In this document: piece after piece, positions 9,930-59,799 of the stretch
How the letters are laid out: every line of letters begins with the position of its first letter
Position numbering within the stretch: position 1 is the stretch's first letter
Assembly (NCBI GenBank): GCA_025041175.1
Contig: JAKCFJ010000002.1
Coordinates: 806,001 to 870,000 of the forward strand
DNA: 64,000 nt
Direction: 5' to 3'
From: Halobacteriales archaeon YIM A00010
GTDB lineage: Archaea; Halobacteriota; Halobacteria; Halobacteriales; Haloarculaceae
Notes under the pieces: generated by a model
Told to the model about the DNA's origin: nothing
What the model saw: the letters and a program-made list of their open reading frames with translations, nothing else
Databases searched by the model: none
Position numbers and translations under genes: made by a program

Positions 9930-10160
9930 GACACCATGATGGCCGTGCTTCCCGGATTGTCTCCGCGTTCATAGTTGGTGATAGCGATAGCGAGGCGCAG
10001 ATATAGTGTGAGGTCCTCGTTCCGCCGAGACGAACGCATCAAACTCTTCGAGAAACCCGAAGGAGAGATGCTCAAACAACGCTAGCGCCTCGGTCTCCAC
10101 GACATTGTAAGACGACGCTACCGAAGGGTCATCTTGCAGGGTCGCTGAGCACGTGCTATC
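9930..10160 (-). pseudogene. Internally deleted ISH8/ISH3-type transposase remnant
   Basis: Read leftward, the first part matches the N-terminus of a haloarchaeal ISH8-type transposase (LQDDPSVASSYNVVETEAL, then ALFEHLSFGFLEEFDAF). It is followed almost at once, in another frame, by the family's extreme C-terminus (LRLAIAITNYERGDNPGST). The whole catalytic middle, several hundred residues, has been lost. The element is dead. It lies between the two halves of the leftward gvp arm. Confidence 0.65.
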
Positions 10161-39542: not shown

Positions 39543-39554
39543 CAATAGACACCA
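39507..39554. repeat. 48-bp block identical to 42019-42066 across the lyase gene starts
   Basis: The block covers the start codon, the first codons of the Tat signal and 12 bp of leader. It is identical in both lyase genes, although the proteins have diverged elsewhere. It contains a perfect hairpin (CGCGCGT/ACGCGCG, loop AGAA, 39510-39527) just inside the coding region. Upstream of it, the promoter core TTATTCTAGTAA is also shared. Confidence 0.75.
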
Positions 39555-39563
39555 GGACGACAA

Positions 39564-39900: not shown

Positions 39901-42054
39901 TCAAGGCGGGTTCGCGCTCGCTTCTTCGACGGAAAGCGCCCACTGTTCGAGCCAGTCGCGGAGACCACTACTTGGCACCGACAGCGAGTGGGTGTTTTCG
40001 GGGAGGCTTGGATAGCCGCCAACAGCGTCGTGGTCGGGAAGCCAGTAATCGTATTCCGAATCGAGACGGTCGTTTCCAGCTCGATCGGTGATCTCTCGAA
40101 CGATGCGCTGGTCGTTTTCGGTTCGATCGGCTGGCCGTGCACCAGCGTAAGTGAGATTGTGACCCTCGACATCGGTAGACGGCATAGCGGTCAAATCATC
40201 CGGCCACAGCGGTTTCGAGTCCGTTGTCCCCTCCTCGACGAACGGAACGTCCGAGTCGATGGGTGGATCAGCCGTGATGTTGTCCTCGCCGTACACCGTT
40301 CCACTGCCTTCGACGATCGATTCACCAGTGGCGGTCACACCGGTGTACTTGTTTCCGACCCACGTCGTCTCGGCCGATCCGTCGGTGTTCGTTGCCTCGT
40401 CGAAGAAGTAACAGAAGTTGTTTGCGACGACGGTTCGCGTGTCGCTTTTGAGCCGTGGGATCCGGCTGCGGGCTTTCGCCCAGACGTTGCCGAGCAACGC
40501 GACGTGGTCGGCCCCATCACCGATCAGCGTGCAGTAATTATGATCGGATCCGTCGCCGTACGGATCGTACAATCCCTCGTAGATCAGGTTGTTCGAGTAC
40601 GTCGTCTCGTCGGTGTCATATCCGACGGACATGCATTCATCGACGCCCCACGAGGCCGTACAGTGGTCGATGACGTTGTTGACCGTCTCGTCCTGGGTGT
40701 TCAGGGAATCGTTGCCCTGAATGTTACCATCCGGGCCAGGACCGATACGGGATCGAATGTGCTGGACGACGCAGTTGTCGGCATCGACCTGCACCATCCC
40801 ACTGATGAAGGTGATCCCCGGCGAGGGGGCGGTCTGGCCCGCCACCCAGCAGTTGTCCTCCGTGATCCGTAACGTCTCGCCGCCCAGATCGATGGTGCCG
40901 CTGGTTTCGAAGACGATCACGCGTGGACCGCTGGTGTGGAATGCGTTTTCGACAGCGCTGCGGGTCGGCTCCGTCACCGTGACGACTTGTGTGCTGTCAT
41001 CGAGCCACGCTGTCGATGCGAAACCGTCCTCTCCGTCGAAGTACGATCCGCCGGAACTTCCACCACCATCCTCGGAGGCTGTGAATGCGTTTATTGAACC
41101 GGTAGCGGAATCACCATCGCTGGCGTCCGTCATAGCCCGAAACTCGTAGTCGGCTCCCGACGACAGTCCCGACACGTCCTGGCTGAACGAATCGGTCGTG
41201 GTGAGCGTCTGTACGTCTGTAGCTGTCCACGAAGCGCCGCTCTCGCGGTATTCGAAGAAGACGTTCGCCGAGGACGCCCCACCCAACCCCCCGAGAGCGC
41301 CGTTCAGTGTCGCCGACGTGTTGGTTACGTTCGACGCCGAGCCCGTCGACACGATCGGATCAGTGTCGCCACCGCTGGTCGAGACACTCCCCGCCACTTC
41401 GACGGCTCCGATATCCTGATTACTGCTCGGAGCAACGCCCGAAAGGTTCGAGAACGACGCCGTACAGAGGGTGCCCGAGTTGTGACTCGTGACGGCCAGA
41501 CCGAGATACCCGCTTTCGGCGAGATCGATCGCGTCTGACGTGAGTTCCGCCATGAGCGTCCAAGCACTCCCGTCGGTCGAACCGTACGCGAGGATCGCGT
41601 CCCCACTCCGGACCAATCGCTGATAATTGGCCGTCATCGTGCCGCCCGAGATCTCGCTCTCGCTTTCACCCGCGTCGGACGTCAGACTCGTCGATGCACC
41701 ACCCGTCTCGGGACGCCATTGGACCGACGTGTCGTGTCCAGGGGTGTTCCTGATCAGTACGTTCTTCGCGTCCCCAGCAAGCGACTCGCGGAACAGCAAT
41801 CCACCCTTGGCGTATTCGTCGGTGTCCGCTACGTCGTCCACCCGGACGACGGCATCGAACTCGCCGCTGACATCGGTGAAGTAGTAGTGGCACTCATCGG
41901 TCTCGTTCCAGATGTCTGTGCCTGCACCCTCGATCGTAATGTCGGCCGTCGCTAACGCATTGCTAGCGGTGGCCGTTACTGTGCTGCCTATCGCTACTGC
42001 GCCAATACCTCCTGCTCCGATCGCGCGTAGAAACGCGCGTCTGTTGTGTGCCAT
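39901..42054 (-). CDS. Secreted pectate-lyase-like protein with one Fn3-type domain
   Basis: The 717-residue paralogue of the previous gene. It has a Tat signal (MAHNRRAFLRAIGAGGIG), a beta-sandwich domain (about 40-215), one fibronectin-type-III-like domain (about 235-325) and the beta-helix lyase domain. The lyase part shows WVAGQTAPSPGITFISGMVQ, VDADNCVVQHIRSRIGPG, NVIDHCTASWGVDECMSVGY and RIPRLKSDTRTVVANNF. Compared with its neighbour it lacks one Fn3 unit, so the genes differ by a domain gain or loss after duplication. I chose ATG 42054 over the TTG before it. Expected role: extracellular breakdown of pectin-like or other uronic-acid polymers. Confidence 0.82.
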   Translation of the reverse strand: MAHNRRAFLRAIGAGGIGAVAIGSTVTATASNALATADITIEGAGTDIWNETDECHYYFTDVSGEFDAVVRVDDVADTDEYAKGGLLFRESLAGDAKNVLIRNTPGHDTSVQWRPETGGASTSLTSDAGESESEISGGTMTANYQRLVRSGDAILAYGSTDGSAWTLMAELTSDAIDLAESGYLGLAVTSHNSGTLCTASFSNLSGVAPSSNQDIGAVEVAGSVSTSGGDTDPIVSTGSASNVTNTSATLNGALGGLGGASSANVFFEYRESGASWTATDVQTLTTTDSFSQDVSGLSSGADYEFRAMTDASDGDSATGSINAFTASEDGGGSSGGSYFDGEDGFASTAWLDDSTQVVTVTEPTRSAVENAFHTSGPRVIVFETSGTIDLGGETLRITEDNCWVAGQTAPSPGITFISGMVQVDADNCVVQHIRSRIGPGPDGNIQGNDSLNTQDETVNNVIDHCTASWGVDECMSVGYDTDETTYSNNLIYEGLYDPYGDGSDHNYCTLIGDGADHVALLGNVWAKARSRIPRLKSDTRTVVANNFCYFFDEATNTDGSAETTWVGNKYTGVTATGESIVEGSGTVYGEDNITADPPIDSDVPFVEEGTTDSKPLWPDDLTAMPSTDVEGHNLTYAGARPADRTENDQRIVREITDRAGNDRLDSEYDYWLPDHDAVGGYPSLPENTHSLSVPSSGLRDWLEQWALSVEEASANPP

Positions 42055-42066
42055 CAATAGACACCA

Positions 42067-44509: not shown

Positions 44510-47104
44510 TCAGTATTCGTGGGTGAACGCGTCGGAGACGTACTGTCCACCAGCGCCGTCGTCCCAGACGAAGCGGACGTCGATCGCGCTGGCGGCGTCG
44601 TGCGTGTGACGGTGGATCCCCCCGTCGGACTCCATGCGGTAGCCGACCCAGCCGCCGTCGTCGAACTGGATGTCCGCCCAGTCGGCGTCGTTGTTCGGAT
44701 CGAACTCCCAGTGGCTGGCGTCGCCGTCGTCGGTGACGGTGGCGGTCCAGCCGTCGCCGGAGTAAGTGGTCTCACCGTCACCGTTGCCATCGTCACCGTC
44801 GTCACCGCCGTCGCCGGTGTCAGCGGACGTGGCCATCGAGTTCGGGGGGACATCCAGCTGCGCGCCGTCGGAGAAGGTCACGGTCGCGGCGGAATCACCG
44901 GCGTTGTAGGCCGCGTAGGTCCGCTGGCTGCCGTGGCTAAACACCTGGTAGAACGGCGTGTCCGCGGTGACGGTGCCGTCCGGTGGACCCATCTCGTGGA
45001 GGTTGTAGATCCAGTGGTACGTCTGGGCGCGCGTGTGGCCGCCTTCGATCTCGTAGGTGTTCTTCCGTGCTTCAAACTTCTCGACGGCGTCCTGTCCGTC
45101 CGAGAACGCCCGATACATCCACATGATGTCCGGCCAGTAGTCGAATTCGTCGGTGCCCTTGTTCTCGACGAGTTCGTCGTAGTTCTCTGCCGGCACCGCG
45201 TCGTCCCAGCCCAAATGCAGCGAGTAGCCGGCGAGTGGCAGCCAGTTGATGCCGTGGATCGCTTCCTCGTCGGCGGTCCACCAGGTGGCGTAGGCGTAAC
45301 CGTTGCCCCACACCATCCCGGCGGTCCCGTAGTCCCACGAGTCGGGGTGGTTGGCGTCGTCGGCGTCAAACCAGTACTCGTGGACAGCGTGGAGTTCAGT
45401 CGTGTAGAGGAAGACACCGAAGTCGCGCAGTTCCTCGTTGCCCGTGTACTCGCCCCACTCGATGATCGCCGCGTACGCGTTGAGCGCCTCGGACGAGGAT
45501 TCCTGGTTGTTGCCGTCAGCGAACTCGGCGCCGCCGCCCTCCGCCCACGAGTGTCCGCAGTACGGGCTGAAGTTGCGCGCAAACGGGAACATGTCGTCCT
45601 CGCGGCGAGGGTTGGCGTAGTCGCGGATCAGGTGCTCGATCATCCCTCCCCACTGGTCCTGGGCGCCCCAGTCGGGGTCGGTGCGCGCGATTTCGGCGGC
45701 AGCGCGCACGTAGTACCCGTAGTGGAAGTGGTGATCGGACAGCGACGATGCCGACCCGTGGCTCTCGGGATACCCCAGCAGTGATCCCCAGTTGTCGTCG
45801 TAGTAGAACAGTTCCGCTTCGCCGCTCTCGGCTTGGAGCCACCCCTCGAGGTGGTTTCGCAGCGAGCCGACGACGGCGTCGCGCTTGCCGCTCAGGCCGA
45901 ACTGCTCGGCCAGCGCTTTGCTTTCGACCAGCCGTCCGTAGTCCTTGCCGACGTTGTACGTGTCGGGTCCCTCGATCGAGGTGTCGATCTCCTCGATGTA
46001 CCCTTGGATCTCTGCGGTGTCGTAACCGCCCTCGTCGGGCAGGAACGGGAGCATGCCGCCGTAGTCGTAGGTCGTCGAGAACGACGACCCGGCGACGACG
46101 CGCATCTCCCCGCGCGGGGACGTGTAGGTCGTCTCCAGCGTGTCGTCGTCGCTGTGCTTCCACTGGTGGGGATGCAGGGCGGTGATCGTCCCCGCGGCCG
46201 CGCTCTCGGACATCTCATCCGTCTCGAAGTTGTAGGTGGTGTGGACCGCGGCGTTGGCCTGGTCGTACTCCCAGTCGGTCCGGGTGTCGGTGACGAAGTT
46301 GTACGCGTAGTCCTCGAACGTGTCGAGGAAAGCGGTTCCGGGCAGGGCAGCGATCGAACAGTAGCCGGCGCCGCCGAGGTCGTTGGTGAGCGAACCGGTG
46401 CCGACGCCCGACCAGGTCGTTCCGGACGGGGCGAACAGCCCGTAGTGGTGCCCATCGATGGTGACGCCGAGGACGTTCCCCTCCTCAGCCCAGACCTCCG
46501 GTGCGCCGTCGAATGTGATCTCGGCGCCGCCGCCTTCGTACTCGCAGAACACGAAGGGTAAACCCTGGGCGAACGTCGCGCGCAGCGTCGTGGCGCTCCC
46601 CTCCCCCCAGAGCGCGTCGACCGACCAGTCGCCGTGGCCGTCCACGCGCGCAGCGGCGAAACTGTCGGTGCCAGCGTGTCCGATCGTCAAGTCACGACCG
46701 CTGTTGTCCATCACCGTCGTCGTGCCGTCAACCCAGTTGGTCGGGTTCTTGACGAGGAGTCCGTCGTCCTCCGCCCGGAGCATCAGCGGCTGGGCGAACA
46801 TGTTCTCCGAGAACGCGTTCCAGACCAGACTCGACCACCAGTCGTTGGTCGGAACCGGCCCACTACCGAATCCAGTGGTCGTCCAGACCGTGTCCTGGGG
46901 CGCTTGCGCACCCGAGGGCAACGCTGTGGTGTAACTGCCATTGCCGACCGGCACGTGGTTGCTCGCACTGGCAGTGCCGGTCCCGCCGACTGTCCAAGCC
47001 GCCGAGGCGGCGCCGACCAGCTTGCAGTAGTCCCTGCGCGATACGTCGCTCGATTGCGCTTGGCTGTCGATCGCTTCGTCGTTCGAGGGTCGTTCGTTAC
47101 TCAT
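44510..47104 (-). CDS. Secreted GH81 endo-beta-1,3-glucanase
   Basis: From ATG 47104 this is 864 residues. A Tat signal (SRRDYCKLVGAASAAW) is followed by the GH81 N-terminal beta-sandwich, then the alpha/alpha-toroid catalytic domain. Typical marks are PVPTNDWWSSLVWN, SLSDHHFHYGYYVRAAAEIA, FSPYCGHSWAEGGGAEFADG and NNQESSSEALNAYAAI, the last carrying the catalytic Glu residues. A Gly/Asp linker (DGGDDGDDGNGDG) leads to a C-terminal beta-rich module of about 85 residues, probably a glycan-binding domain. The enzyme would cut laminarin- or curdlan-like glucans outside the cell. The TATA region is near 47262-47272. Confidence 0.9.
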   Translation of the reverse strand: MSNERPSNDEAIDSQAQSSDVSRRDYCKLVGAASAAWTVGGTGTASASNHVPVGNGSYTTALPSGAQAPQDTVWTTTGFGSGPVPTNDWWSSLVWNAFSENMFAQPLMLRAEDDGLLVKNPTNWVDGTTTVMDNSGRDLTIGHAGTDSFAAARVDGHGDWSVDALWGEGSATTLRATFAQGLPFVFCEYEGGGAEITFDGAPEVWAEEGNVLGVTIDGHHYGLFAPSGTTWSGVGTGSLTNDLGGAGYCSIAALPGTAFLDTFEDYAYNFVTDTRTDWEYDQANAAVHTTYNFETDEMSESAAAGTITALHPHQWKHSDDDTLETTYTSPRGEMRVVAGSSFSTTYDYGGMLPFLPDEGGYDTAEIQGYIEEIDTSIEGPDTYNVGKDYGRLVESKALAEQFGLSGKRDAVVGSLRNHLEGWLQAESGEAELFYYDDNWGSLLGYPESHGSASSLSDHHFHYGYYVRAAAEIARTDPDWGAQDQWGGMIEHLIRDYANPRREDDMFPFARNFSPYCGHSWAEGGGAEFADGNNQESSSEALNAYAAIIEWGEYTGNEELRDFGVFLYTTELHAVHEYWFDADDANHPDSWDYGTAGMVWGNGYAYATWWTADEEAIHGINWLPLAGYSLHLGWDDAVPAENYDELVENKGTDEFDYWPDIMWMYRAFSDGQDAVEKFEARKNTYEIEGGHTRAQTYHWIYNLHEMGPPDGTVTADTPFYQVFSHGSQRTYAAYNAGDSAATVTFSDGAQLDVPPNSMATSADTGDGGDDGDDGNGDGETTYSGDGWTATVTDDGDASHWEFDPNNDADWADIQFDDGGWVGYRMESDGGIHRHTHDAASAIDVRFVWDDGAGGQYVSDAFTHEY

Positions 47105-47331
47105 GGTTGCTACTGATAGCGTCTCGGTGTGACGTCTCTGCGACGGCGAGCACAGTCTACGACGGTCTCCCCGCTTCAGTGACCTCGCGTTCCGGCGCGT
47201 AGCCGCTGTGCCACCTGCTCGTTCCCCACCGACGCACGCTATCATCAAAACGTTGTAGTGATATCTATTATATCTTTTCACTAGAAATGTTTACATCATC
47301 GGAGTAGACGGCGATTCGGCGTTTGGGGGTA

Positions 47332-48330: not shown

Positions 48331-49137
48331 CTACTGGAGGTTACCACCACCGCTCACCCGAACGGTCGTTCCAACGACGTACGATGCGGCGTCGCTACAA
48401 AGATACAGTACCGCGTTGGCGATGTCTTCGGGGTCGCCGAGACGACCGAGGGGACGGTCGTTTCCCCATTCTTCGAGAACATCGTCAGTCGTCCGATCCG
48501 GGCGTTCGTCCGCAACTCGACGGGCTTCGTGCCGGAGCTGTCTCGACACAGTCACGTCGGTCGAGACGGCGTTCATCCGAATTCCCTCTTGTGCCAGATC
48601 GTACGCCATCCGCCACGTGAGTCCGTTGATCGCGGTCTTCGACGCACCGTACAACCCGCGTCCACCGGTTCGACGATCACCGGTTTGACTCGTGACATTC
48701 ACGATCGAGCCACCGACATCGCGTTCGATCATGTGTCGTGCGACGAGTTTCGATGCGTAGAACTGCGACCGAACGTTGACGTTCATCGTGAACTCCCAGT
48801 CCTCGAGGGGAGCAGCGACCATCGACTCCTCTTCGGGCCAGACGGCGGCGTTGTTGACGAGCACGTCAATTTCCTCGAATTCGGCGATAGACCGGTCGAC
48901 CAACCGCTCGATATCCGCCGGCTGAGACAGATCGGCCGGGACCCCGATCACGGCTCCGTCGCCGAGCTCATCGAGTTCCACGACCGTCGATTCGACGTCG
49001 GACTCGGTGCGCGAATTAACGGCGATGTTGGCGTCCGCGCGTGCGAGCACCTCGGCAATCCCACGGCCGATACCGCTGGTCGATCCAGTGACGATAGCCG
49101 ACTCACCACTGTAATCATACACCGCGTGTCCAGTCAT
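48331..49137 (-). CDS. Short-chain dehydrogenase/reductase (SDR)
   Basis: The 268-residue classical SDR has the cofactor motif VTGSTSGIGRGIAEVLA near residue 17, then VLVNNAAVWPEE, catalytic Ser in GSIVNVTSQTGDR, Tyr-Lys in GLYGASKTAINGL, and the usual C-terminal VLYLCSDAASYVVGTTVRVS. It oxidises or reduces a hydroxyl group with NAD(P). In this island it could act as a sugar dehydrogenase or as the dehydrogenase of a 2-keto-3-deoxy-sugar acid. It is co-directional with the sugar importer genes 75 bp upstream and may be the last gene of that operon. Confidence 0.88.
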   Translation of the reverse strand: MTGHAVYDYSGESAIVTGSTSGIGRGIAEVLARADANIAVNSRTESDVESTVVELDELGDGAVIGVPADLSQPADIERLVDRSIAEFEEIDVLVNNAAVWPEEESMVAAPLEDWEFTMNVNVRSQFYASKLVARHMIERDVGGSIVNVTSQTGDRRTGGRGLYGASKTAINGLTWRMAYDLAQEGIRMNAVSTDVTVSRQLRHEARRVADERPDRTTDDVLEEWGNDRPLGRLGDPEDIANAVLYLCSDAASYVVGTTVRVSGGGNLQ

Positions 49138-49212
49138 AACAGCCGTAAGAACAGATGACGTAAATATCTATGTCCGGCTGTGGACGGAGAGATGGATCAG
49201 TCGTGACACCGA

Positions 49213-50007
49213 CTACGACCGCTCACCGGACACCATCAACGAACTGAGATCGTCTTTCGTCACCGAGTCCGTGCTTGCTACCTCGACGATCTCACCCTGA
49301 TAGAGAACGCCGACCCGATCGGCGAGTTGGAAGATTTCGTCGAGGCTGTGGCTAACGACGATGATCGTCTTTCCGTTGTCGCGCAGGTTTCGAACTGTCT
49401 CCCGGACGAGTGCAGTCGCGTCGACTGAAAGCGCGCTCGTCGGTTCGTCCAGAATGACGATGTCCGGATCGAATGCGAGCGCTCGTGCGATAGCGACCAG
49501 CTGCCGCTCCCCACCGGAGTGAAACGCGACCTCGGCGTGTGGATCGATGTCTCGCTTGAGATGCGTCTCGATGATCGCTTCGGCTCTCTCGTAGGTTTCA
49601 TCCCAGTCGATCGATCGAAACGGACCGATCTCCGTGGCTGGAAAGTTACCCATAAAAATGTTCGTTGCCACGTCGAGATCATCCATCAGTGCCAGATCCT
49701 GATACACCGTCTCGATGCCCCGATTGCGGGCGCTTTCTGGACTATCGAACTCGACGGACTCGCCGTCAAGATAGATCTCTCCGCTGGTCGGTTCGTGAAC
49801 GCCGCTGAGAACGTTCATCAAGGTCGATTTGCCGGCACCGTTGTCGCCGACGAGAGCGAGGATCTCGTTTTCGCGGATGGACAGAGTGACGTTCTCGAGT
49901 GCGACAATGCGTCCGAAGACCTTTTGGACGTTTTCGACCGCTATCTTTCCTGTCGGTTCGTGTGCTGGATCGCGGCCGTCGGTGGTATCGGGTGGTTCGC
50001 TACTCAT
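49213..50007 (-). CDS. Sugar ABC importer, ATP-binding protein (Rbs-type, single domain)
   Basis: The 264-residue protein has Walker A GDNGAGKSTLMNVLSGVHEP near residue 54. The signature region is FHSGGERQLVAIARALAFDP near 160, and Walker B is IVILDEPTSALSVDATALVR. A hallmark of the RbsA/XylG group is the helix-rich MDDLDVATNIFMGNFP part. Bacterial RbsA proteins carry two such domains in about 500 residues. This one has one, so it probably works as a homodimer. It overlaps the permease gene by ATGA (50004-50007). Confidence 0.9.
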   Translation of the reverse strand: MSSEPPDTTDGRDPAHEPTGKIAVENVQKVFGRIVALENVTLSIRENEILALVGDNGAGKSTLMNVLSGVHEPTSGEIYLDGESVEFDSPESARNRGIETVYQDLALMDDLDVATNIFMGNFPATEIGPFRSIDWDETYERAEAIIETHLKRDIDPHAEVAFHSGGERQLVAIARALAFDPDIVILDEPTSALSVDATALVRETVRNLRDNGKTIIVVSHSLDEIFQLADRVGVLYQGEIVEVASTDSVTKDDLSSLMVSGERS

Positions 50008-51008
50008 GTACTGGCCCCCGCCGAAAGGACTCGATCGCGGATGTTTGCTTTGGTGTTGTACAGCAAGATCGCGATCAGAAGCACGATACCGTTGACGACC
50101 TCGATGAGCGTCGGATCGAATCCGGCGACGTTGAGCGACGTTTCGATGAGACTGAGGAGCAACACGCCGCCGAGAGCACCGAGTAACTTTCCACGCCCAC
50201 CAAAGAGGCTGATCCCACCGATGATCGCCGCTGCGAACGCAGAGAACACCATATCGTCGGCGATATCGGGCGAAACGAGTCCGGTGTAGCCGGTCAACAT
50301 CAACCCTGCGAGCGCACAGAAGAAGCCACTCAGTGTGTAGACCAGGATGATCGTCCGTTCGGTGTTGATCCCGACGGCGCGGGCAGCTTCCTTGTCACTG
50401 CCGACCGCGTACACGGCCTGTCCGAAATGCGTGTATCGGAAAATCACCGCCATGAAGACGAACGACGCGAGCAGAACGCCGATCGCGACGATCGGGCTGC
50501 TCCCGAGTGCGGTGTATCCGTCTGGAAGGCCCGAAATGGGTTGAGTCGTTAACGCGAGCTTTCCACCGCCGAAGATAACGAAAAACGCCAGCGTCTGGAG
50601 GAACGGATTCACTCCGAACGTGGCGATCATGATCCCATTTGTCGCGCCGATCACGCATCCGACCGCAACGACAATGACGACGCCGAGAATGGGATTCGAG
50701 ACGAGACTCCATTCGGCAAGGATCATTGCAGTGAGCACGGCCGAGAACCCGGCGATCGCACCGACCGAGAGATCGAAGTGTCCGGACAACAGACAGACGC
50801 TCTCTGCGAGAACGATGAGTCCGAGTGGAACCGCTGCGAACAACATCAGTTGGAGCGTGGCTGTGTTCGTAAAGACCCGTGGAACGAACGCCAGCACCAA
50901 CAGGGAGATGACGGCCAGAATCGGCCAGATCATGTTTTCGAGCAGAATCAGCACTGACTGTTCGGGGAGCCGATCGAACTGCCGTGTTACAATGTTGGAA
51001 GTGCGCAT
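50004..51008 (-). CDS. Sugar ABC importer, permease (RbsC-like)
   Basis: From ATG 51008 this is 334 residues with about nine helices. It carries the RbsC family marks: GLIVLAESVCLLSGHFDLSV, then GAIAGFSAVLTAMILAEW, IGATNGIMIATFGVNPFLQT, AVYAVGSDKEAARAVGINTE and AIIGGISLFGGRGKLLGALG. It forms the membrane channel of the importer. It lies between the binding-protein gene (15 bp upstream) and the ATPase gene. Confidence 0.9.
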   Translation of the reverse strand: MRTSNIVTRQFDRLPEQSVLILLENMIWPILAVISLLVLAFVPRVFTNTATLQLMLFAAVPLGLIVLAESVCLLSGHFDLSVGAIAGFSAVLTAMILAEWSLVSNPILGVVIVVAVGCVIGATNGIMIATFGVNPFLQTLAFFVIFGGGKLALTTQPISGLPDGYTALGSSPIVAIGVLLASFVFMAVIFRYTHFGQAVYAVGSDKEAARAVGINTERTIILVYTLSGFFCALAGLMLTGYTGLVSPDIADDMVFSAFAAAIIGGISLFGGRGKLLGALGGVLLLSLIETSLNVAGFDPTLIEVVNGIVLLIAILLYNTKANIRDRVLSAGAST

Positions 51009-51022
51009 GGATAGCGATAATG

Positions 51023-52132
51023 TTATCCCCAAATGTTCCCCCAGAGTCCTGGGTTGTCGACGTTTTCGTCAGTAACGACGATACCGGCGGTCAGAACGTG
51101 TGTATGTCCGTCCTGTTCCTCGACGGTCGCGGGCGCCCAGATCGGATCCTCCCAGAGCTGCGTTCCGTTGTACTCGATCGGATCGAACGAGTAGTCGTTC
51201 TGGTCGACGGTATCGCCGGGCTGGGGCAGCGCGTCGTCACCGCTATCGATGTAATCGAGCAGCTGTTGGATCGCCAGGGGAATGTAGAAGTGCACCGGTT
51301 GGTCGACGGCAGCGTCGACGTATCCCTCTTTGATCAGTGGGTTCACATCCGGTCCAGCATCGGGTTGCGTCTGAACGATGTGATCGCTCTCCCCAGCAGG
51401 AGACTGGAGATCCAACTGCTCGAACGCGTTCTGGACGCCGATCCCGCACGTCATGTTCGTCGGGTACACCCCGTCAGGAGCGTCGTTTGCGCTCAGGTAA
51501 TCCTCGGTCGTCGACTGTGAATCGTCGATACTCCAATCCGTCTGGATCGTATCGACGACTTCGACGCCGTCTTGCTCTGCGATGTACTCGTCGAACCCGT
51601 CCGTCCGGGCGTTCGACTGCTGGTTGAAGGCACCACGGACGTGGAGCACGGAAAATTCGTCCTGGTCGGGATTCTGCTCCTCGAGGGTTTCGACCATCAG
51701 TTCGGCACACGTCGCTCCCGCCTCGGTGTTCCCGAACGCGGTAAACGTCTTGATCGAATCGGTCGTCCCCGGATCGTTAACTGTGAAGACAGGAATGCCC
51801 TCCTCCGCGGCCTCGTCGATCGCCTCATCGACCGCTTCGTCGAACGGTGCGGCGATGATCGCGTCGTACCCCTCGGCAACGAACTGGCGGATGTCAGTCA
51901 CCTGCTCGGCCGAGTCCTGGTCGTGGCTAACGATGTTGTAATCGAGTCCCTGTTCTTCGGCGTACAGTTCACCAGCCTCGTAGAAGGCAGTCACCCAGTC
52001 ACCGCCAACGAGGTGCTGTGAAACACCCACCCGAAGCGAGTCGTCGTCCTCGGAGCCCATACACCCGGCTACTCCGACCGCGCTGGCAGCGACTACCGAC
52101 CGCAGGTAGCCGCGCCTGCTAGTAATGTGCAT
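51023..52132 (-). CDS. Sugar ABC importer, substrate-binding lipoprotein
   Basis: The 369-residue protein has a Tat-type lipoprotein signal (RRGYLRSVVAASAVGVAGCM, with lipobox VAGC near residue 23). After cleavage it is anchored on the outside of the membrane. The body is a type I periplasmic binding fold: LRVGVSQHLVGGDWVTAFYE, then DYNIVSHDQDSAEQVTDIRQ, GYDAIIAAPFDEAVDEAIDE and YVDAAVDQPVHFYIPLAIQQ. It belongs to the ribose/deoxysugar-binding type. The ligand is not known. L-fucose or another hexose released nearby is the guess. TATA-like sequences lie at 52143-52170. Confidence 0.9.
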   Translation of the reverse strand: MHITSRRGYLRSVVAASAVGVAGCMGSEDDDSLRVGVSQHLVGGDWVTAFYEAGELYAEEQGLDYNIVSHDQDSAEQVTDIRQFVAEGYDAIIAAPFDEAVDEAIDEAAEEGIPVFTVNDPGTTDSIKTFTAFGNTEAGATCAELMVETLEEQNPDQDEFSVLHVRGAFNQQSNARTDGFDEYIAEQDGVEVVDTIQTDWSIDDSQSTTEDYLSANDAPDGVYPTNMTCGIGVQNAFEQLDLQSPAGESDHIVQTQPDAGPDVNPLIKEGYVDAAVDQPVHFYIPLAIQQLLDYIDSGDDALPQPGDTVDQNDYSFDPIEYNGTQLWEDPIWAPATVEEQDGHTHVLTAGIVVTDENVDNPGLWGNIWG

Positions 52133-52385
52133 ACGAACCTAAACAATATACCACTTCAAATAAAGGTTATCGTTCTTACCAGACACTCATCCAAAATTGA
52201 TAAAAAATGTTGGAAATATGTGAAGATGTGAGGAGCACCGGTAGCGACGAAGGGAGCATCACCGCCCGCCTATCGTCCCGAAACGAGCACGAGCTCGACG
52301 AGAGGGTAGAACGACGTCGCGGCCCCGGATGAAAGCGGAGTCGCCTCCCCAGTGGTGTGGTCTCGCTGTGAGCGTTCACACCACA

Positions 52386-52400
52386 TCTTTATTATATTCT
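52386..52400 (+). promoter_or_regulatory. Promoter of the amidohydrolase gene
   Basis: TTTATTATATT at 52388-52398 is centred 26 bp before the GTG at 52419, which predicts a leaderless mRNA and supports that start. The 285-bp gap also holds the leftward promoter of the importer operon. Confidence 0.6.
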
Positions 52401-52418
52401 TATCCATAGTGGCTGCGC

Positions 52419-53288
52419 GTGAAGATTATTGATACACACACCCACGCGTGGGGTGCGCCGACCGACGAACTCCCGTGGCAGGCGGAGGTGCTCCCACCCG
52501 GATGGACCGGTCCGTACGCGCACCACGACCTCGTCGCGGACATGGACAGCGCAGGCATCTCCGAGGCGGTCGTCGTAACGACGCCGCTGTACGGGCGCAG
52601 CGCGCGGGCCAACGAATACACCATGCGCAGCATCGAAGCCCATCCGGACCGCCTCTACGGCGTCGGTCTGATGGACTTCTTCCAAGCGGACGCCGACACC
52701 GTCGTCGCATCGCTGGAGCGCGTGACGGGCCACCCCCGGATGCTCGGCGTCCGGATGCACGCTGCGCTCGAGTACGAGGCGGTTCCGACGGTGCTCGACC
52801 GTCACGGTGACTGGATCCTCGACGACCGCCTCGATCCGGTTTGGCGGGCGATTGGTGATCTCGATGCGTGTCTGTTCGTCTTTCCGAAGGCCCAGCAGCT
52901 CGAACAGCTCGCGACGCTCGCCGACCGCTACCCGGAGACGACCATCGTCGTCGACCACATGGCGTGGCCCGACGGAACGACGAGCCCCGACGAGAAACCG
53001 TGGACCACGTTCTCCGAGCTCGCAGAACGCGATAACGTCTACGCGAAAGTGAGCTCCGTTCCGCGGTCGGCGGACGAACCCTGGCCCTACGAGGACACCC
53101 ACGGATACGTAACGAACCTCGTCGACTGGTTCGGTCCCGAACGGTTGCTGCTCGGGTCGGACTACCCGTGGATGGACCAGTGGGCGGCGTACGACGACTG
53201 CCTCTCGTGGCTCGAAACGGTCGAAACGCTCTCCCGACGAGATCGGGCGTTCATCTCACACCGGACGTTCGAACGACTCCACGGCTGA
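52419..53288 (+). CDS. Amidohydrolase-family lactonase (COG3618 type)
   Basis: The 289-residue protein starts (GTG) KIIDTHTHAWGAP, with the metal-binding HxH of the amidohydrolase TIM barrel. VVTTPLYGRSARANEYTMRS, TIVVDHMAWPDGTTSPDEKP (His) and LLLGSDYPWMDQWAAYDDC (Asp) follow. Members of this group include L-fuconolactonase, L-rhamnonolactonase and 2-pyrone-4,6-dicarboxylate hydrolase. Next to a fucosidase-like gene and an acid-sugar dehydratase, sugar lactonase is the best reading. It opens a two-gene rightward unit with the GH95 gene, though a 120-bp gap leaves room for a second promoter. Confidence 0.8.
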   Translation: MKIIDTHTHAWGAPTDELPWQAEVLPPGWTGPYAHHDLVADMDSAGISEAVVVTTPLYGRSARANEYTMRSIEAHPDRLYGVGLMDFFQADADTVVASLERVTGHPRMLGVRMHAALEYEAVPTVLDRHGDWILDDRLDPVWRAIGDLDACLFVFPKAQQLEQLATLADRYPETTIVVDHMAWPDGTTSPDEKPWTTFSELAERDNVYAKVSSVPRSADEPWPYEDTHGYVTNLVDWFGPERLLLGSDYPWMDQWAAYDDCLSWLETVETLSRRDRAFISHRTFERLHG

Positions 53289-53408
53289 CCCAACTCCGTC
53301 CCCCGATCACCGGAAACGTGGCTGCATCATATTTTTCCACGCGATAGTGATAATTTTTTGATGGAAATGTTTATGCTCGTGTATGAATATTTCTCGGTCG
53401 AGATACCA

Positions 53409-56264
53409 ATGGCGGCTGATCAGTCGGCGGAGACAGCGGCAGAGTCGAACAGGCACGGTGATGGAGATGGATCAGGTTCCGACGTTTCTCGGCGAACGAT
53501 ACTGGCGGGGGTGGGGATGCTTCTGTTCGCAGATAGAATAACCGGTTCGGTCGGGGCCCGTGAGACAGACGAGTTCGAGGACTACGACGAGGAGGAGACG
53601 CCGAAACTCTGGTACACTCAGCCGGCCGAGGACTGGGAATCAGAGGCACTCCCGCTCGGGAACGGACGGATGGGCGCGATGGTTTTCGGCCGGACCGAGG
53701 AGGAGCGGATTCAACTCAACGAGGAAAGTCTCTGGGCGGGTGGCCATCACGAACCGGATGGGAACAATCCGATGGCGGCCGAGGTGCTTCCCGATGTCCG
53801 CGAACACCTATTAGATGGCGAACACGAAGAGGCGGAAGCGCTTATCGATCCGCACATAATGGGGGAACCCCCCGATTACGAGACGCTGGTGCGGCCGTAT
53901 CAATCGTTCGGCGACCTGTTTATCGATGTTGGACACACAGACGTCTCGGAGTACCACCGCGAGTTGGATCTCGACGCGGGCGTTTCGCGGGTACGCTACC
54001 GGAACGGTCGGACGAAATACGAACGGGAAGCGTTTGTTTCCGCTCCCGACGACGTCCTCGTGGTCCGACTCACGGCTCAGGGGCCGGATTCGGTTTCCGC
54101 CTCCGTTTCGCTGACGCGCGAACGAGACGCCGAAACAGTGGCCGACGGCGACGACCTCGTCCTTCGGGGTCAAATCCAAGACGATCCGTCGATCGACTTC
54201 GAGGGACCGGGGCTCGAGTTCGAGGGACGCCTGCGAGCGATTCCACAGACGACGGGGACCGTTTCGACGAACGATGACCGGATGGAGATCGAAGACAGGA
54301 CTGCAGTCACGCTGCTCTTTACGGGGGCGACGAGTTTTCGAACGGAGACCGATCCGGCTGACGCTGTCGAGAGCCTACTCACTGAGGCAGCAACCAAATC
54401 GTACGGGCGGTTACGGGACACCCACGTCACCGATCACCGCGCGTTGTTCCGGCGGGTCGAACTCGAACTCGGTGGGACTGAAACGCAAATACCGACCGAC
54501 GAACGACTCGACGCCGTTCAGGACGGCGACATCGATCTAACGTTGACGGAACTCTACTTCCAATACGGTCGGTACCTGTTAATGGGTAGCTCCCGGCCAA
54601 ATGGCACGCTCCCGGCGAATCTACAGGGCATTTGGAACGAAGAGATGTACCCACCCTGGCAGAGTGATTACCACATGAACGTCAATCTTCAGATGAATTA
54701 CTGGCCAGCGGACGCTTGCAACCTCTCTGAATGCGTCTCCCCCCTGGTCAACTGGTTCGATGCTCAGCGTGAATCGGGGCGGAAAACGGCAGCAATCCAT
54801 TACGAAAGTGATGGGTTCGTCGACCACGTTTCTAGCGACATCTGGGGGAGTACCCCGCCGGAAGGCTGGTTCGGAGCCGTTTGGCCGATGGGAGCAGTCT
54901 GGCAGTGTCGGGCGCTCTGGGAGCACTACGCAAAGACCGGCGATCGTGCGTTTCTTCGAGAGGAGGGGTATCCGATCATGAAGGACGCTGCCCGGTTCGT
55001 CCTCGATTTCCTCATCGAGGACGATCACGGCAGACTCGTTACCGCTCCATCGAACTCGCCCGAAAACTCGTTCATCAACGATAACGGGTATACGGCGCTC
55101 TACGACGTTGCACCGACGATGGACGTTCAACTCATCCACAGCCTATTCAATAACTGTATGGAGTCAGCGGACATACTCGGACTCGACGATTCGTTTAGCG
55201 AGGAGCTTTCGGAGGCGGTAGCGCGGCTGCCGTCGTATCAGATCGGGGGCGACGGCACGCTACAGGAGTGGATAAACGATTACGAGGAAGCGGAACCGGG
55301 ACATCGACACATCTCTCACTTGTTCGCGTTCCATCCGGGGAACCAGTTCACGCTGCGTGAGACCCCTGTTCTGAGCCAGGCCGTGCGAAACGCGCTCGAA
55401 CGCCGGCTCGAACACGGTGGCGGTCACACGGGCTGGAGCCGGGCGTGGCTCATAAACCAGTGGGCGCGTTTCGAGGAAGGGGAGTTAGCCCACGAAAACC
55501 TCCTGGCGTTGTTCGGGCAGTCCACGCTGCCGAATCTCTTCGACACGCATCCGCCGTTTCAGATCGACGGCAACTTCGGCGGAGCTGCCGGAATCGTCGA
55601 GATGCTGTTGCACGACCACGCCGGTGAGCTGAGCCTCCTCCCCGCTCTCCCCGAACAGTGGGCCGACGGCGAAGTGACAGGACTACGGGCTCGCGGCGGA
55701 TTCGAGGTCGATATGGCGTGGTCCGATGGGCGCCTAGACGCGACGACGATCCACTCGGCTACCGGCGGTGAGTGTCGGGTCCGTACGCACGGCGTCCAGC
55801 TCTCGATCGAGGAGGTGAATCGCGGGAGCCAGCCCGGCGTGAGCCGGCCGGCGGAGCAGGTCATCGAGTTCACGACCGAACCGGGCCAGACGCTCTCTCT
55901 CGAGGCCGATCCCGCGTCCGTTGCCAACCTCACGATCGATTCGTCCGGGATCGCTCTCGATCGAAACGAGGGGCACGTCGAGGTCACTGTTCCAGTACGC
56001 AACACCGGCACCGCTCCGTCGGGAGACACTGTCGTCCGCCTCGTAAACGTGAGCGACGAACGAGAGCCGATCGGAGACGATCTACCCGTTCCGTCGCTCG
56101 CCGTCGACGAAACTGTCGAGATCGTCACCGAAATCGGTAGCGGGGAGCTTCCGGTCGGCGACCATCAGATCTGGGCAGTGGTCGATCCGGAGAACACGGC
56201 CAGCGAACTGGAGAAAAACGACAACGTCGAAACCGTCGGAACGGTCAGTATCGGTCCGGACTAA
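53409..56264 (+). CDS. Secreted GH95 alpha-L-fucosidase-like enzyme
   Basis: From ATG 53409 this is 951 residues. A Tat signal (DVSRRTILAGVGMLLFAD) precedes the GH95 N-terminal beta domain (PLGNGRMGAMVFGRTEEERI, QLNEESLWAGG), then the alpha/alpha-barrel. Catalytic-region marks are HMNVNLQMNYWPADACNL (the two Asn near 424/426), TAPSNSPENSF (Glu near 552) and PPFQIDGNFGGAAGIVEMLL (Asp near 720). About 110 C-terminal residues form a CARDB-like beta domain. GH95 enzymes remove terminal alpha-1,2-L-fucose (some act on L-galactose) from glycans. The sugar would be released outside and taken up by the nearby importer. Confidence 0.9.
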   Translation: MAADQSAETAAESNRHGDGDGSGSDVSRRTILAGVGMLLFADRITGSVGARETDEFEDYDEEETPKLWYTQPAEDWESEALPLGNGRMGAMVFGRTEEERIQLNEESLWAGGHHEPDGNNPMAAEVLPDVREHLLDGEHEEAEALIDPHIMGEPPDYETLVRPYQSFGDLFIDVGHTDVSEYHRELDLDAGVSRVRYRNGRTKYEREAFVSAPDDVLVVRLTAQGPDSVSASVSLTRERDAETVADGDDLVLRGQIQDDPSIDFEGPGLEFEGRLRAIPQTTGTVSTNDDRMEIEDRTAVTLLFTGATSFRTETDPADAVESLLTEAATKSYGRLRDTHVTDHRALFRRVELELGGTETQIPTDERLDAVQDGDIDLTLTELYFQYGRYLLMGSSRPNGTLPANLQGIWNEEMYPPWQSDYHMNVNLQMNYWPADACNLSECVSPLVNWFDAQRESGRKTAAIHYESDGFVDHVSSDIWGSTPPEGWFGAVWPMGAVWQCRALWEHYAKTGDRAFLREEGYPIMKDAARFVLDFLIEDDHGRLVTAPSNSPENSFINDNGYTALYDVAPTMDVQLIHSLFNNCMESADILGLDDSFSEELSEAVARLPSYQIGGDGTLQEWINDYEEAEPGHRHISHLFAFHPGNQFTLRETPVLSQAVRNALERRLEHGGGHTGWSRAWLINQWARFEEGELAHENLLALFGQSTLPNLFDTHPPFQIDGNFGGAAGIVEMLLHDHAGELSLLPALPEQWADGEVTGLRARGGFEVDMAWSDGRLDATTIHSATGGECRVRTHGVQLSIEEVNRGSQPGVSRPAEQVIEFTTEPGQTLSLEADPASVANLTIDSSGIALDRNEGHVEVTVPVRNTGTAPSGDTVVRLVNVSDEREPIGDDLPVPSLAVDETVEIVTEIGSGELPVGDHQIWAVVDPENTASELEKNDNVETVGTVSIGPD

Positions 56265-56298
56265 CCACAGTCATTTGGGTTGGATCGCTTCGAGAGAG

Positions 56299-57396
56299 TC
56301 ACCACGACGTCACGCGAACGTCACGAAGCGGTCTCGGTAGCGGGATTTCGATCTGTCCACCGGTATGGTGTGAGAGGTAGAATCCGATGATGATCTCTAT
56401 CGATCTGATCGCCTCTTCGCCCGGCGATCCGTTCTCGGCGCGTCCGTCGAGAACGTCGACGATGTGAGCGGCCGCGTTTTCGAACGCCTGCTGGTAGTCG
56501 TCCTCCCACGTCCACGCCCCGTCGATTCCCGGCAGCGCGTGCTCGACGTGCTCACCGTCCTCTAACCGCCAGTACCGCCACTCGCCGTCGTCGTTGTTCA
56601 TGTACAGTTTCCCCTCGCTGCCGATGAACTGCAGCGTCATCGACGAACTCTCGCGTGGAATCGTACAGTCGACGGTGACGAACGTTCCATCGTCCAGTAC
56701 GACGAACCCACCGCCGCCGGCATCGTCGACCTCCTGGCCGGCGTCGAGGCTGTCGACAGCCTCGTTTTCACCGGAGAGATACCCGGAGACGATCTCCGCG
56801 CGGGCGTCGAGCAGGTAGACAAGCGTATCGAGCAAGTGCGTCGAGTTGCGAAGCAATTCCATTCGAAACTGGGTCGTCACCGACTGGAGTTCCCCGAGAA
56901 TTTCCTCTTCCTGAACGAGTGTACGCAGCCTCTGGAGCTTGTCAGTAAACCGGAACGAGTGGTTCACGAGCAGTTCGGTGTCCGTCTCCGCACAGACATC
57001 GACCATCTCGAGCGCCCCAGTAACCCCCGAAGCGATCGGTTTTTCACACCAGATCAGATCCGGATCCGCGGCGGATCGAGCCGCATCGATCACGTGCCGG
57101 TCGTGGAGATACGACGGCGTACAGACCGAGACGACATCGAGCGATTCGGTCTCGAGCATTGTTTCGTGACCCGCGTACTGCCGGTCCGGATCGATCTCCC
57201 ACGCCGCTCCGAAGCGTTCGAGTTTCTCTTCATCGACGTCGGCGACCGCAACGAGTTCGATCTCGTCCTGAGCGTCGAAACCGCCGGCGTGACTGGCCCT
57301 GATCTTCTCGTTCCCGATCTTCGATTCAGCGTGCATTCCGAGAATACCCATCCCAGCAATGCCGCCCGAACCGATGATTCCGGCGTTGTACGTCAT
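56299..57396 (-). CDS. Gfo/Idh/MocA-family sugar oxidoreductase
   Basis: The 365-residue protein has an N-terminal Rossmann fold (AGIIGSGGIAGMGILGMHAE, then VAVADVDEEKLERFGAAWEI) and the EKP motif LIWCEKPIASGVTGALEMVD. The C-terminal alpha/beta substrate domain reads LLRNSTHLLDTLVYLLDARA, GGGFVVLDDGTFVTVDCT and AIRSIEIIIGFYLSHHTGGQ. Such enzymes oxidise sugars or sugar derivatives with NAD(P). It starts 6 bp behind the dehydratase, so both are one operon. It could be the sugar 1-dehydrogenase that feeds the lactonase. Confidence 0.85.
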   Translation of the reverse strand: MTYNAGIIGSGGIAGMGILGMHAESKIGNEKIRASHAGGFDAQDEIELVAVADVDEEKLERFGAAWEIDPDRQYAGHETMLETESLDVVSVCTPSYLHDRHVIDAARSAADPDLIWCEKPIASGVTGALEMVDVCAETDTELLVNHSFRFTDKLQRLRTLVQEEEILGELQSVTTQFRMELLRNSTHLLDTLVYLLDARAEIVSGYLSGENEAVDSLDAGQEVDDAGGGGFVVLDDGTFVTVDCTIPRESSSMTLQFIGSEGKLYMNNDDGEWRYWRLEDGEHVEHALPGIDGAWTWEDDYQQAFENAAAHIVDVLDGRAENGSPGEEAIRSIEIIIGFYLSHHTGGQIEIPLPRPLRDVRVTSW

Positions 57397-57402
57397 TGGT
57401 AC

Positions 57403-58578
57403 TCACTCGTAGACGTGAAGAGATCCGGTCTGATTCTCCTCGATGTAGTCCCAATCGTAGTCGACGCCGAGACCAGGGCCGTCCGGAACGGTAACGCAAC
57501 CGTTCTCGTCGACGGTGTCGATCATGTCCGAGTAGTCTCCGTTATAAACCGGCGGTTGTGTGTTCTGGCAGTTCGGGTGGAGGAGAGCCAGTTCGTAGTA
57601 GTTCGTGTTCCGCGTCGCAGCGATACAGTGTCGCTGTGCCGGACCCGGAGCGTGGAATTCGACGTCGAGACCGAACGATTCGGCCATATGGACGATCTTC
57701 ATCGCGCCCGTAATCCCCGCGTCGTACTCGGGATCAGCGCGGACGAAGTCGGTTCCCTCGCCGACGACGAAATCAGCGTGGGGTTCGAGACCGCGAACGT
57801 GTTCCGTCTGCAAGATCGGCGTCTCGAGTTTGTCGCGGAGCCGACGGTGTCCCTGCTGTGAGATCCCGCCATCGCGGTAGGGATCCTCGTACCAGAAAAA
57901 GTTATGATCGTCGAGTTCTCGTCCGACCCTGAGCGCGTCACCGAACGTCTCGTACTCACACGCCGGATCGAACATGAGATCCATTTCGTCGCCGACACGT
58001 TCACCGACGGCGGTTATCGACTCGATCTCACGGTCGATGTTACGGCTCGCGTCGCTTCCACCCCAGCCGTGGATCTTGTACCCAGGAAAGCCACGCTCGA
58101 GACACGCTTGGGCGAAGTCAGCGAAGGCCTCCGGCGAATCGAGACCGCCGTTTTCGTCGCCGTGATACGTCGATGCGTACGCCGGGATCGACGTGCGGTA
58201 GGTTCCGAGCAGTTCGTGAATCGGGGCGTCGTAGTACTTCCCGGCGAGATCCCAGAGAGCGATATCGATCGGTCCCATCCCCATCCGGTCGTACTTCCGC
58301 AGCGCCCGTTTGATCTCACTCCAATGTTTCTCGCGTTTGAGCGGATTCGTGCCGACGAGATAGTCGGCAAACATGTTTATCTGGGCTGCGCCTGGGGAGT
58401 TGCCGCCGACGTACTCCCCTGTAACCCCACTGTCGGTGTGGATCTTGATACCAAACAGGTTTCGCCACGTCGTCTCACCCGGCTCGTAGACGAGATTGAA
58501 TCCGTTTCGATCCGTCCCAAGATCCTCGAGCGGATACTGAAACTCACGGCTTTCTATCCGCGTTATCGTCGGCACCAT
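57403..58578 (-). CDS. Enolase-superfamily acid-sugar dehydratase
   Basis: From ATG 58578 this is 391 residues, the size of mandelate-racemase-type dehydratases. Catalytic marks are the KxH motif GYKIHGWGGSDASRN, metal ligands in DLMFDPACEYETFGD, FWYEDPYRDGGISQQG and PILQTEHVRGLEPH, and a closing His in VEFHAPGPAQRHCIAATRNT. These enzymes dehydrate sugar acids such as fuconate, rhamnonate, galactonate or glucarate to 2-keto-3-deoxy acids. The exact substrate is not given by the motifs. I chose 58578 because the TATA-like ATTTATAAC at 58600-58612 makes the start at 58599 too early. 58587 is also possible. Confidence 0.83.
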   Translation of the reverse strand: MVPTITRIESREFQYPLEDLGTDRNGFNLVYEPGETTWRNLFGIKIHTDSGVTGEYVGGNSPGAAQINMFADYLVGTNPLKREKHWSEIKRALRKYDRMGMGPIDIALWDLAGKYYDAPIHELLGTYRTSIPAYASTYHGDENGGLDSPEAFADFAQACLERGFPGYKIHGWGGSDASRNIDREIESITAVGERVGDEMDLMFDPACEYETFGDALRVGRELDDHNFFWYEDPYRDGGISQQGHRRLRDKLETPILQTEHVRGLEPHADFVVGEGTDFVRADPEYDAGITGAMKIVHMAESFGLDVEFHAPGPAQRHCIAATRNTNYYELALLHPNCQNTQPPVYNGDYSDMIDTVDENGCVTVPDGPGLGVDYDWDYIEENQTGSLHVYE

Positions 58579-58856: not shown

Positions 58857-59031
58857 ATCTCGCTGTAGGATTTAGTATGTATGAACGCGAGTTCTCCCCG
58901 CATCAGTTTGATCGGCCCTCATCCGATATCAGGGATCAATGCTCACCCCAAAATCGTACTGACCGATGGTGGTTTCCGAGTTCTACATACTAGAACAACA
59001 ATTTTGTACACCGAGCGCATTTCTCACGATT

Positions 59032-59799
59032 ATGGACACAGAACCAAAACATCCAGTTCGCACGACGGCGCGCTCGTTCGAGATTCTCGAGTTTCTCAAG
59101 GAGAATCACGGCGCAGGGATAACCGAAACAGCGGACGCACTCGATATGAGCAAAGGAGTGGTACACAATCACTTAAACACGCTCAAAGCGTCCGAGTACG
59201 TCGTGAAAGAAAACGACAAGTACCGATTGTCGTTACGATTCCTCGGATTCGGAGAATACCAGCGAAATCAGACACGGCTGTACACGATCGGGAAAGAGCA
59301 CGTCGAGGAGCTCGCTGAAAAAACCGGCGAGTTAGTAAACCTCGCCACGGAGGAGCACGGCCGGTGTGTGTATCTGTCCCTCTCGAGAGGCGACCGGGCG
59401 GTCGAAGTAGACATTCACGCCGGGTGCCGTCCGCCCCTCCACAACACCGCACTCGGCAAAGCAATTCTCGCACACCTCCCGGAATCCCGGGTCGAACGTA
59501 CTCTCGACGCCCACGGAATGGCACGGTCGACCGAACACTCGATCACGGATCGTGACACGCTGTTTTCGGAGCTCGAGCAGATTCGGGAGAACGGTGTCGC
59601 GTTCGATCGCGAAGAGCGACTTCCCGGGTTGCGGTGTGTCGCTGCACCGATCGAGAAAAACAATGGCGAGGTCGCTGGCGCGATCAGCGTTTCCGGCCCG
59701 ATGACCCGCCTCCAAGGAGAGCGGTTCGAACAAACACTGCCCGATCTGGTCCGTAGCACTGCGAACGTGATCGAGCTTAACTTAGCATATTCCAATTGA
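59032..59799 (+). CDS. IclR-family transcriptional regulator
   Basis: From ATG 59032 this is 255 residues. The N-terminal winged helix reads TTARSFEILEFLKENHGAGI, then TETADALDMSKGVVHNHLNT and LKASEYVVKENDKYRLSLRF. The C-terminal effector domain reads IGKEHVEELAEKTGELVNLA, GCRPPLHNTALGKAILAHLP and LPGLRCVAAPIEKNNGEVAG. IclR proteins usually bind a small acid or sugar acid and control a neighbouring catabolic operon, here the divergent dehydratase/oxidoreductase pair. I rejected the start at 58966, because the 22 added residues are not family-like. Confidence 0.88.
   Translation: MDTEPKHPVRTTARSFEILEFLKENHGAGITETADALDMSKGVVHNHLNTLKASEYVVKENDKYRLSLRFLGFGEYQRNQTRLYTIGKEHVEELAEKTGELVNLATEEHGRCVYLSLSRGDRAVEVDIHAGCRPPLHNTALGKAILAHLPESRVERTLDAHGMARSTEHSITDRDTLFSELEQIRENGVAFDREERLPGLRCVAAPIEKNNGEVAGAISVSGPMTRLQGERFEQTLPDLVRSTANVIELNLAYSN

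Follow-up and report, generated by a model that had tools for sequence, protein, structure and literature searches.

L-fucose often caps the glycans of algae, plants, and animals, and it is the principal sugar of fucoidan. An oxidative, non-phosphorylating L-fucose pathway with a diketo-acid hydrolase is known from Xanthomonas and Burkholderia, and an L-rhamnose pathway was reportedly worked out in Haloferax volcanii by Reinhardt et al. in 2019. Here we describe a locus of nine genes in a 64,000-nt stretch of DNA (contig C2, positions 806001-870000; hereafter the window) within a 5.97-Mb haloarchaeal genome, which probably serves to scavenge L-fucose and degrade it oxidatively. The genes occupy 48.3-59.8 kb of the window in the order SDR, RbsA, RbsC, and RbsB (minus strand), COG3618 and GH95 (plus), Gfo and enolase (minus), and IclR (plus). 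Coordinates are window positions; families were called with Pfam and equivalogs were checked with NCBIfam. A first-pass annotation had read these genes as a candidate complete front end of an oxidative pathway for L-fucose or a similar deoxysugar. Every gene that it named was found in place, in the family that it gave, and the reading frames of all nine are intact (open reading frames and Pfam).

The proposed route has the same chemistry as the bacterial pathway (Route III in PMC6336799), with a dehydrogenase, a COG3618 lactonase, an enolase-superfamily dehydratase, a 4-dehydrogenase, and an FAH hydrolase that yields pyruvate and lactate. It differs in having a Gfo-family dehydrogenase, an Rbs-type ABC importer, and a remote hydrolase; its dehydratase appears to lie on another branch of the enolase superfamily (closest structures 1rvk and 4hch), and its COG3618 protein, at 48.7 bits against the L-fucono-1,5-lactonase equivalog (NF052480, cut-off 400), is a relative rather than a member. 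The L-fucose/D-arabinose pathway of Sulfolobus, according to passages of the same paper, likewise oxidizes L-fucose in an archaeon by way of an enolase-superfamily dehydratase, but its dehydrogenase belongs to another family and it follows an aldolase route (Route I); the NCBIfam model for archaeal arabinonate dehydratase gives the window enolase only 89 bits (cut-off 650). With the L-rhamnose pathway of H. volcanii (Reinhardt et al., as cited in PMC8305020 and PMC11519228), which has an IclR activator and lactate oxidation by LudBC, the proposed route would share haloarchaeal 6-deoxyhexose oxidation and these two elements, and the last intermediate is presumed to be common to both. The genome's own rhamnose-type cluster differs from the window in its COG3618 protein (40% identical) and in its enolase, for which L-rhamnonate dehydratase is the best model; an exported fucosidase was not seen in that cluster. 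The oxidative D-ribose pathway of Haloarcula, as far as sections of PMC8551123 describe it, also includes an enolase-superfamily sugar-acid dehydratase, and window-like enolases adjoin a nucleoside hydrolase.

The locus is probably a new haloarchaeal variant of the known oxidative L-fucose pathway. In targeted and broad searches of openly licensed PMC literature, no title or abstract start among the matches listed dealt with L-fucose breakdown in haloarchaea, and part of PMC13260240 names fucoidan among the polysaccharides not used by the haloarchaeal isolates of that study.

In the proposed route, the exported GH95 enzyme would free L-fucose from glycans outside the cell, and the RbsB/C/A-type ABC importer would bring it into the cell. 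Of the two dehydrogenases, one, slightly more likely Gfo, would oxidize L-fucose to L-fuconolactone, which the COG3618 enzyme would open to L-fuconate, and the enolase-superfamily enzyme would convert L-fuconate to 2-keto-3-deoxy-L-fuconate. The other dehydrogenase, slightly more likely the SDR, would then oxidize C4 to give a 2,4-diketo-3-deoxy acid. The remote FAH of the rhamnose-type cluster is predicted to split this acid into pyruvate and L-lactate, and LutBC, encoded beside it, would oxidize the lactate. None of the catabolic proteins of the window reached the cut-off of any equivalog in NCBIfam, those of the fucose pathway included, so the substrate assignments rest on gene context. The direction of transport is inferred.

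That context is informative. We surveyed homologs of the Gfo protein from named genomes (77 loci, or 78 with the window; loci from the same genome and from close species were counted separately) and found a GH29 or GH95 gene at 10 of the 78. These are in Natrialba asiatica, Haloterrigena salina, Halovivax (two loci), Salinarchaeum laminariae, Halocatena marina, Haladaptatus halobius, Halegenticoccus tardaugens, Halogeometricum pallidum, and the window. All ten carry a window-type COG3618 gene and a window-type SDR gene, versus 7 and 4, respectively, of the 68 others. The enolase is present at 9 of the ten versus 29 of the 68, a RhaM-type (PF05336) mutarotase at 8 versus 2, and an IclR match at 8 of the ten. 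The SDR and the COG3618 protein are the fucosidase-specific pair, and Gfo and the enolase are more widespread. The set recurs across haloarchaeal families, which places the neighborhood beyond chance.

The same association was found at the level of whole genomes. Few genomes of the class have GH29 (10 of 292 haloarchaeal genomes), and window-type COG3618 occurs in 23 of the 292 (E<=1e-60), being present in 9 of the 10 genomes with GH29 versus 14 of the 282 without it (Fisher 2e-10) and, counted by genus, in 9 of 9 versus 8 of 68 (1.5e-7), with relatedness ignored in both comparisons. Leaving aside the genome studied here, the gap between GH29 and COG3618 is 0.5-4.3 kb in all eight genomes that have both. 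The exception among the GH29 genomes (G110) has one GH29 gene near Gfo, IclR, LarA, and FAH1 genes. In the genome studied here, the single GH29 gene (contig C3, 257 kb) has no gene of the fucose set in its 20-kb region, and GH95 occupies the place adjoining COG3618. Four representative GH29 proteins match PF01120 in Pfam. At three loci (L192, L193, and L195) the importer lies beside a secreted GH29 protein, with the ATPase 73-78%, the permease 83-84%, and the binding protein 75-83% identical to those of the window, and the window-type SDR is also beside the GH29 gene. Both fucosidase families, which are mutually unrelated, occur with the set. L-fucose as the sugar, proposed by the first-pass annotation, is well supported by this recurrence, in other haloarchaea, of the same SDR, COG3618, Gfo, and enolase genes linked to fucosidases of family GH29 or GH95, and no single protein identifies it; the earlier interpretation as a whole is partly supported. 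GH95 as a general haloarchaeal marker of the set was rejected. Strong GH95 matches occur in 11 of the 292 genomes (26 match at E<=0.001, 12 of them above the cut-off, the remainder being short weak matches), and all nine other GH95 neighborhoods fetched lack the set.

The first-pass annotation had also advised a search for an FAH-type diketo-acid hydrolase elsewhere, and one was found with lactate-oxidizing partners. Ten PF01557 (FAH) genes are present in the genome and none in the window. One of them (C2, 482.7-483.5 kb) lies between an SDR gene and LutC-LutB (C2:481-486 kb) in the rhamnose-type cluster, about 370 kb from the fucose locus; 11-14 kb beyond it are an L-rhamnonate-dehydratase-like enolase, a second COG3618 gene, and the genome's only RhaM. 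The best model of the hydrolase is 2,4-didehydro-3-deoxy-L-rhamnonate hydrolase (NF053535), at 215.9 bits and below the cut-off of 500, and the best match of the adjoining LutB is the L-lactate dehydrogenase LdhH. At the family level, the genome contains genes for all steps, namely the dehydrogenase, lactonase, dehydratase, 4-dehydrogenase, and FAH hydrolase. L-rhamnose and L-fucose have the same C5; dehydration removes the stereocenters at C2 and C3, and oxidation removes that at C4. Only C5 is left, so the diketo acids derived from the two sugars are one compound, and a rhamnose-type FAH could therefore serve both. Passages of PMC8305020 report that rhamnose yields pyruvate and lactate in H. 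volcanii and that deletion of LudBC impairs growth on rhamnose, and passages of PMC6336799 describe how, in bacteria and/or archaea, a dehydrogenase and a hydrolase convert L-KDR and L-KDF to pyruvate and lactate. Elsewhere, the SDR, COG3618, enolase, Gfo, FAH1, FAH2, ALDH, LutB, and LutC genes stand together at L070 and L208. These two loci and L074, all of a Haloarcula type, contain two enolases, a Gfo6-like protein as well as Gfo, COG3618, SDR, FAH2, ALDH, and LutBC (with FAH1 in L070 and L208), and they look like joint islands for pentose and 6-deoxyhexose oxidation.

Each of the two dehydrogenases of the locus could perform the first step. The SDR (48331..49137, minus strand; Pfam adh_short_C2, 1.9e-55) is a candidate L-fucose 1-dehydrogenase or 2-keto-3-deoxy-L-fuconate 4-dehydrogenase, and the Gfo/Idh/MocA protein (56299..57396, minus strand; Pfam) is a candidate L-fucose 1-dehydrogenase. 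The window-type COG3618 gene accompanies Gfo without the SDR at L126, L194, L207, and L210 and the SDR without Gfo at L195, L209, and L212, so the order of the two oxidations is not fixed by these pairings; we lean slightly toward Gfo for the first oxidation and the SDR for that of C4. Structure gave no clue to the sugar for Gfo, whose predicted model (pLDDT 84.9) matched only generic oxidoreductases of the Gfo fold (Z up to 33.2, with 18% identity for that match), and the SDR matched only generic SDRs in the PDB. The candidate L-fuconolactonase itself (52419..53288, plus strand) is an Amidohydro_2 protein (Pfam, 1.5e-33) with an HxH metal motif (THTHAW).

The candidate L-fuconate dehydratase is an MR_MLE enolase-superfamily protein (Pfam) encoded at 57403..58578 on the minus strand, 6 bp from Gfo; its frame extends to 58599, and the start at 58578 was chosen from alignment with relatives. 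Residues K175, H177, D211, E238, E266, D284, and H316 are invariant in all 18 aligned rows. We take these to be the metal ligands and the Lys and His-Asp acid-base groups, and the protein has the residues of an acid-sugar dehydratase of the mandelate-racemase type. The nearest structures, 4hch and 1rvk from Agrobacterium, are 30-31% identical at Z of about 44 (4hch_A: Z 44.5 over 373 residues, rmsd 2.7). The genome has two close paralogs of this enolase, 75% and 71% identical, and a further enolase-superfamily frame with one internal TAG stop (C3:470483-471571) adjoins the latter.

The GH95 gene (53358..56264, plus strand; likely start 53409) encodes an exported protein with a C-terminal CARDB domain and, from the likely start, the twin-arginine signal SRRTILAGVG. 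Its membership in the family, with the catalytic domain and both the N- and the C-terminal one, is clear in Pfam (Glyco_hydro_95_cat, E=2.8e-165; PF22124 550.6 bits, PF14498 232.4, PF21307 90.2). Among solved structures, 2rdy, 7kmq, and 8zbv come closest; FucOB is also related, and its motif DYHNNINVQM corresponds to DYHMNVNLQM in the window protein, which retains the HxNxN of the catalytic Asn pair. At the position associated with the choice between fucose and L-galactose, the window protein has His and the three structures have Thr. His is shared by two GH95 proteins of the same genus, and all ten other surveyed haloarchaeal GH95 proteins (including that of G018) have Thr, so the window GH95 is of another type than these ten. 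Parts of PMC4491172 contrast Thr370 of an L-galactosidase with His419 of the fucosidase AfcA and call the difference not conclusive, and parts of PMC8245568 describe a Thr-bearing enzyme specific for fucose. The His is suggestive of a fucosidase, and we consider this activity likely, not proven, for the window protein.

A number of observations weigh against an L-fucose pathway encoded in this way. The PF05336 mutarotase is absent from the window, its sole copy in the genome being the RhaM of the rhamnose-type cluster; to call the front end complete goes too far, since this gene is present at most fucosidase-bearing Gfo loci. Two genomes of the same genus (G003 and G005) keep GH95 next to the enolase and lack window-type COG3618, their nearest relatives of it being 37-38% identical; a close Gfo is likewise missing from G005. 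FAH1 is found at 2 of the 10 fucosidase-bearing loci versus 27 of the 68 others and LutB at none of the 10, so an enrichment of either was rejected. The His/Thr position alone is not decisive for GH95 specificity. No fuconate dehydratase appears by name among the best 60 of 138 PDB sequences or the 10 NCBIfam models listed for the enolase, and FucD is also missing from the structure matches listed, an absence that is not proof of distance, as there was no direct alignment to FucD. Relatives 72-77% identical to the window enolase sit beside nucleoside hydrolases, in loci of a nucleoside/ribose type; the 75% paralog has a nucleoside hydrolase as its neighbor, together with a Gfo/Idh/MocA protein other than that of the window. 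In a 54-row enolase tree, the fucose-context rows need 6 changes, 5 of them forced by starred branches, and do not form one clade; a group of four enolases in nucleoside-hydrolase context is a separate supported branch. At the Haloterrigena salina locus (L061), the enolase frame (9566-9994) is only 142 aa, with N- and C-terminal parts joined as after an internal deletion, and the other fucose-set genes are retained. Together with the losses in G003 and G005, this indicates that parts of the pathway are often lost or moved.

The most serious alternative concerns the end of the route. An aldolase could cleave 2-keto-3-deoxy-L-fuconate to pyruvate and L-lactaldehyde, with Gfo and the SDR as alternative sugar dehydrogenases. 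L-fucose aldolase routes exist in other organisms (passages of PMC6336799), a DapA-family protein is present at L046 and L089 with a 42% relative in the genome studied here, and the scarcity of FAH1 and LutB at fucosidase loci fits an aldolase end as well as a shared back end. DapA, however, is found at only 1 of the 10 fucosidase loci versus 8 of the 68 others, so it was rejected as the standard end of the pathway, and the genome does have an FAH-LutCB back end. We regard an aldolase end as possible but doubtful.

It is unlikely that the locus serves D-arabinose, alone or mixed with L-fucose, with a 2-keto-3-deoxy-pentonate leaving through FAH2 (an FAH-family dehydratase) and an aldehyde dehydrogenase. 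The configuration of L-fucose at C2-C4 is D-arabino, which could allow one dehydrogenase, one lactonase, and one dehydratase to act on both sugars, and Sulfolobus uses a common dehydrogenase and dehydratase for them (passages of PMC6336799). FAH2 is present at 15 of the 68 Gfo loci without a fucosidase, occurs with ALDH at L070, L074, and L096, and is encoded with ALDH at about 269 kb of C4 in the genome studied here. Yet it is at none of the 10 fucosidase-bearing loci, and an exported fucosidase would supply L-fucose, not D-arabinose.

The genes might also be neighbors that do not form one pathway, the enolase being a D-ribonate-type dehydratase and GH95 serving other enzymes. The enolases beside nucleoside hydrolases and the failure of the tree to split the contexts into single clades are in keeping with this, as is an enolase-superfamily ribonate dehydratase in Haloarcula (sections of PMC8551123). 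The presence of the enolase at nearly all fucosidase-bearing Gfo loci and its adjacency to GH95 in two other species of this genus (L039 and L040) make this explanation distinctly improbable. Least probable is an L-galactose pathway, with GH95 as an alpha-L-galactosidase and downstream enzymes acting on L-galactose or L-galactonate: the family includes such an enzyme (parts of PMC4491172) and an L-fucose/D-arabinose dehydrogenase also accepted L-galactose (passages of PMC6336799), but the window GH95 has His rather than Thr, and in other genomes it is GH29 that these enzymes accompany.

Returning to L-fucose oxidation, we tentatively propose a more specific scenario, plausible but somewhat short of likely. 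The haloarchaeal L-fuconate dehydratase would not be FucD but would come from a haloarchaeal enolase branch that includes ribonate-dehydratase-like members encoded next to nucleoside hydrolases, having been recruited or moved repeatedly, and the fucose branch, without a hydrolase of its own, would merge with L-rhamnose breakdown at the identical 2,4-diketo-3-deoxy acid. The recurring gene set makes haloarchaeal fucose use directly testable, predicts one back end for the two common 6-deoxyhexoses, and suggests a candidate function for Gfo, enolase, and COG3618 families that are widespread in haloarchaea.

The putative importer comprises an RbsA/AlsA-like ATPase of 264 aa with one nucleotide-binding domain (49213..50007; Pfam ABC_tran; best NCBIfam models sugar ABC ATPases, under the cut-off), an AraH/RbsC-like BPD_transp_2 permease (50004..51032; Pfam and NCBIfam), and a Peripla_BP_4 sugar-binding lipoprotein (51023..52132; Pfam) in which a twin-arginine motif and the lipobox VAGC can be read, all on the minus strand. 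The IclR-family protein (58966..59799, plus strand; likely start 59032; Pfam IclR_C and HTH_IclR) is divergent from the enolase and would regulate the set. A common regulator motif in the two divergent intergenic regions was rejected; the two share only a single 9-mer in the same orientation and one in the opposite orientation.

At L063, L066, L077, and L083 the same Gfo has a GH88-family protein, a LarA-like protein, and an AKR as neighbors but no fucosidase, and the family there presumably serves a different sugar context. In Salinarchaeum laminariae (L087), the fucose set beside GH29 is accompanied by two sulfatases and a protein like heparinase II/III and may be a candidate fucoidan locus in an archaeon. 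To the left of the locus in the window are two large secreted proteins (37134-39563 and 39901-42057, minus strand), one of which contains a stretch resembling pectate lyase (9buj_A, 3.4e-14), and a Tat-type GH81 protein (44510-47281, minus strand). In G003 (L039), relatives of both large secreted proteins are likewise found no more than 20 kb from GH95 and the enolase, which hints at a larger polysaccharide locus.

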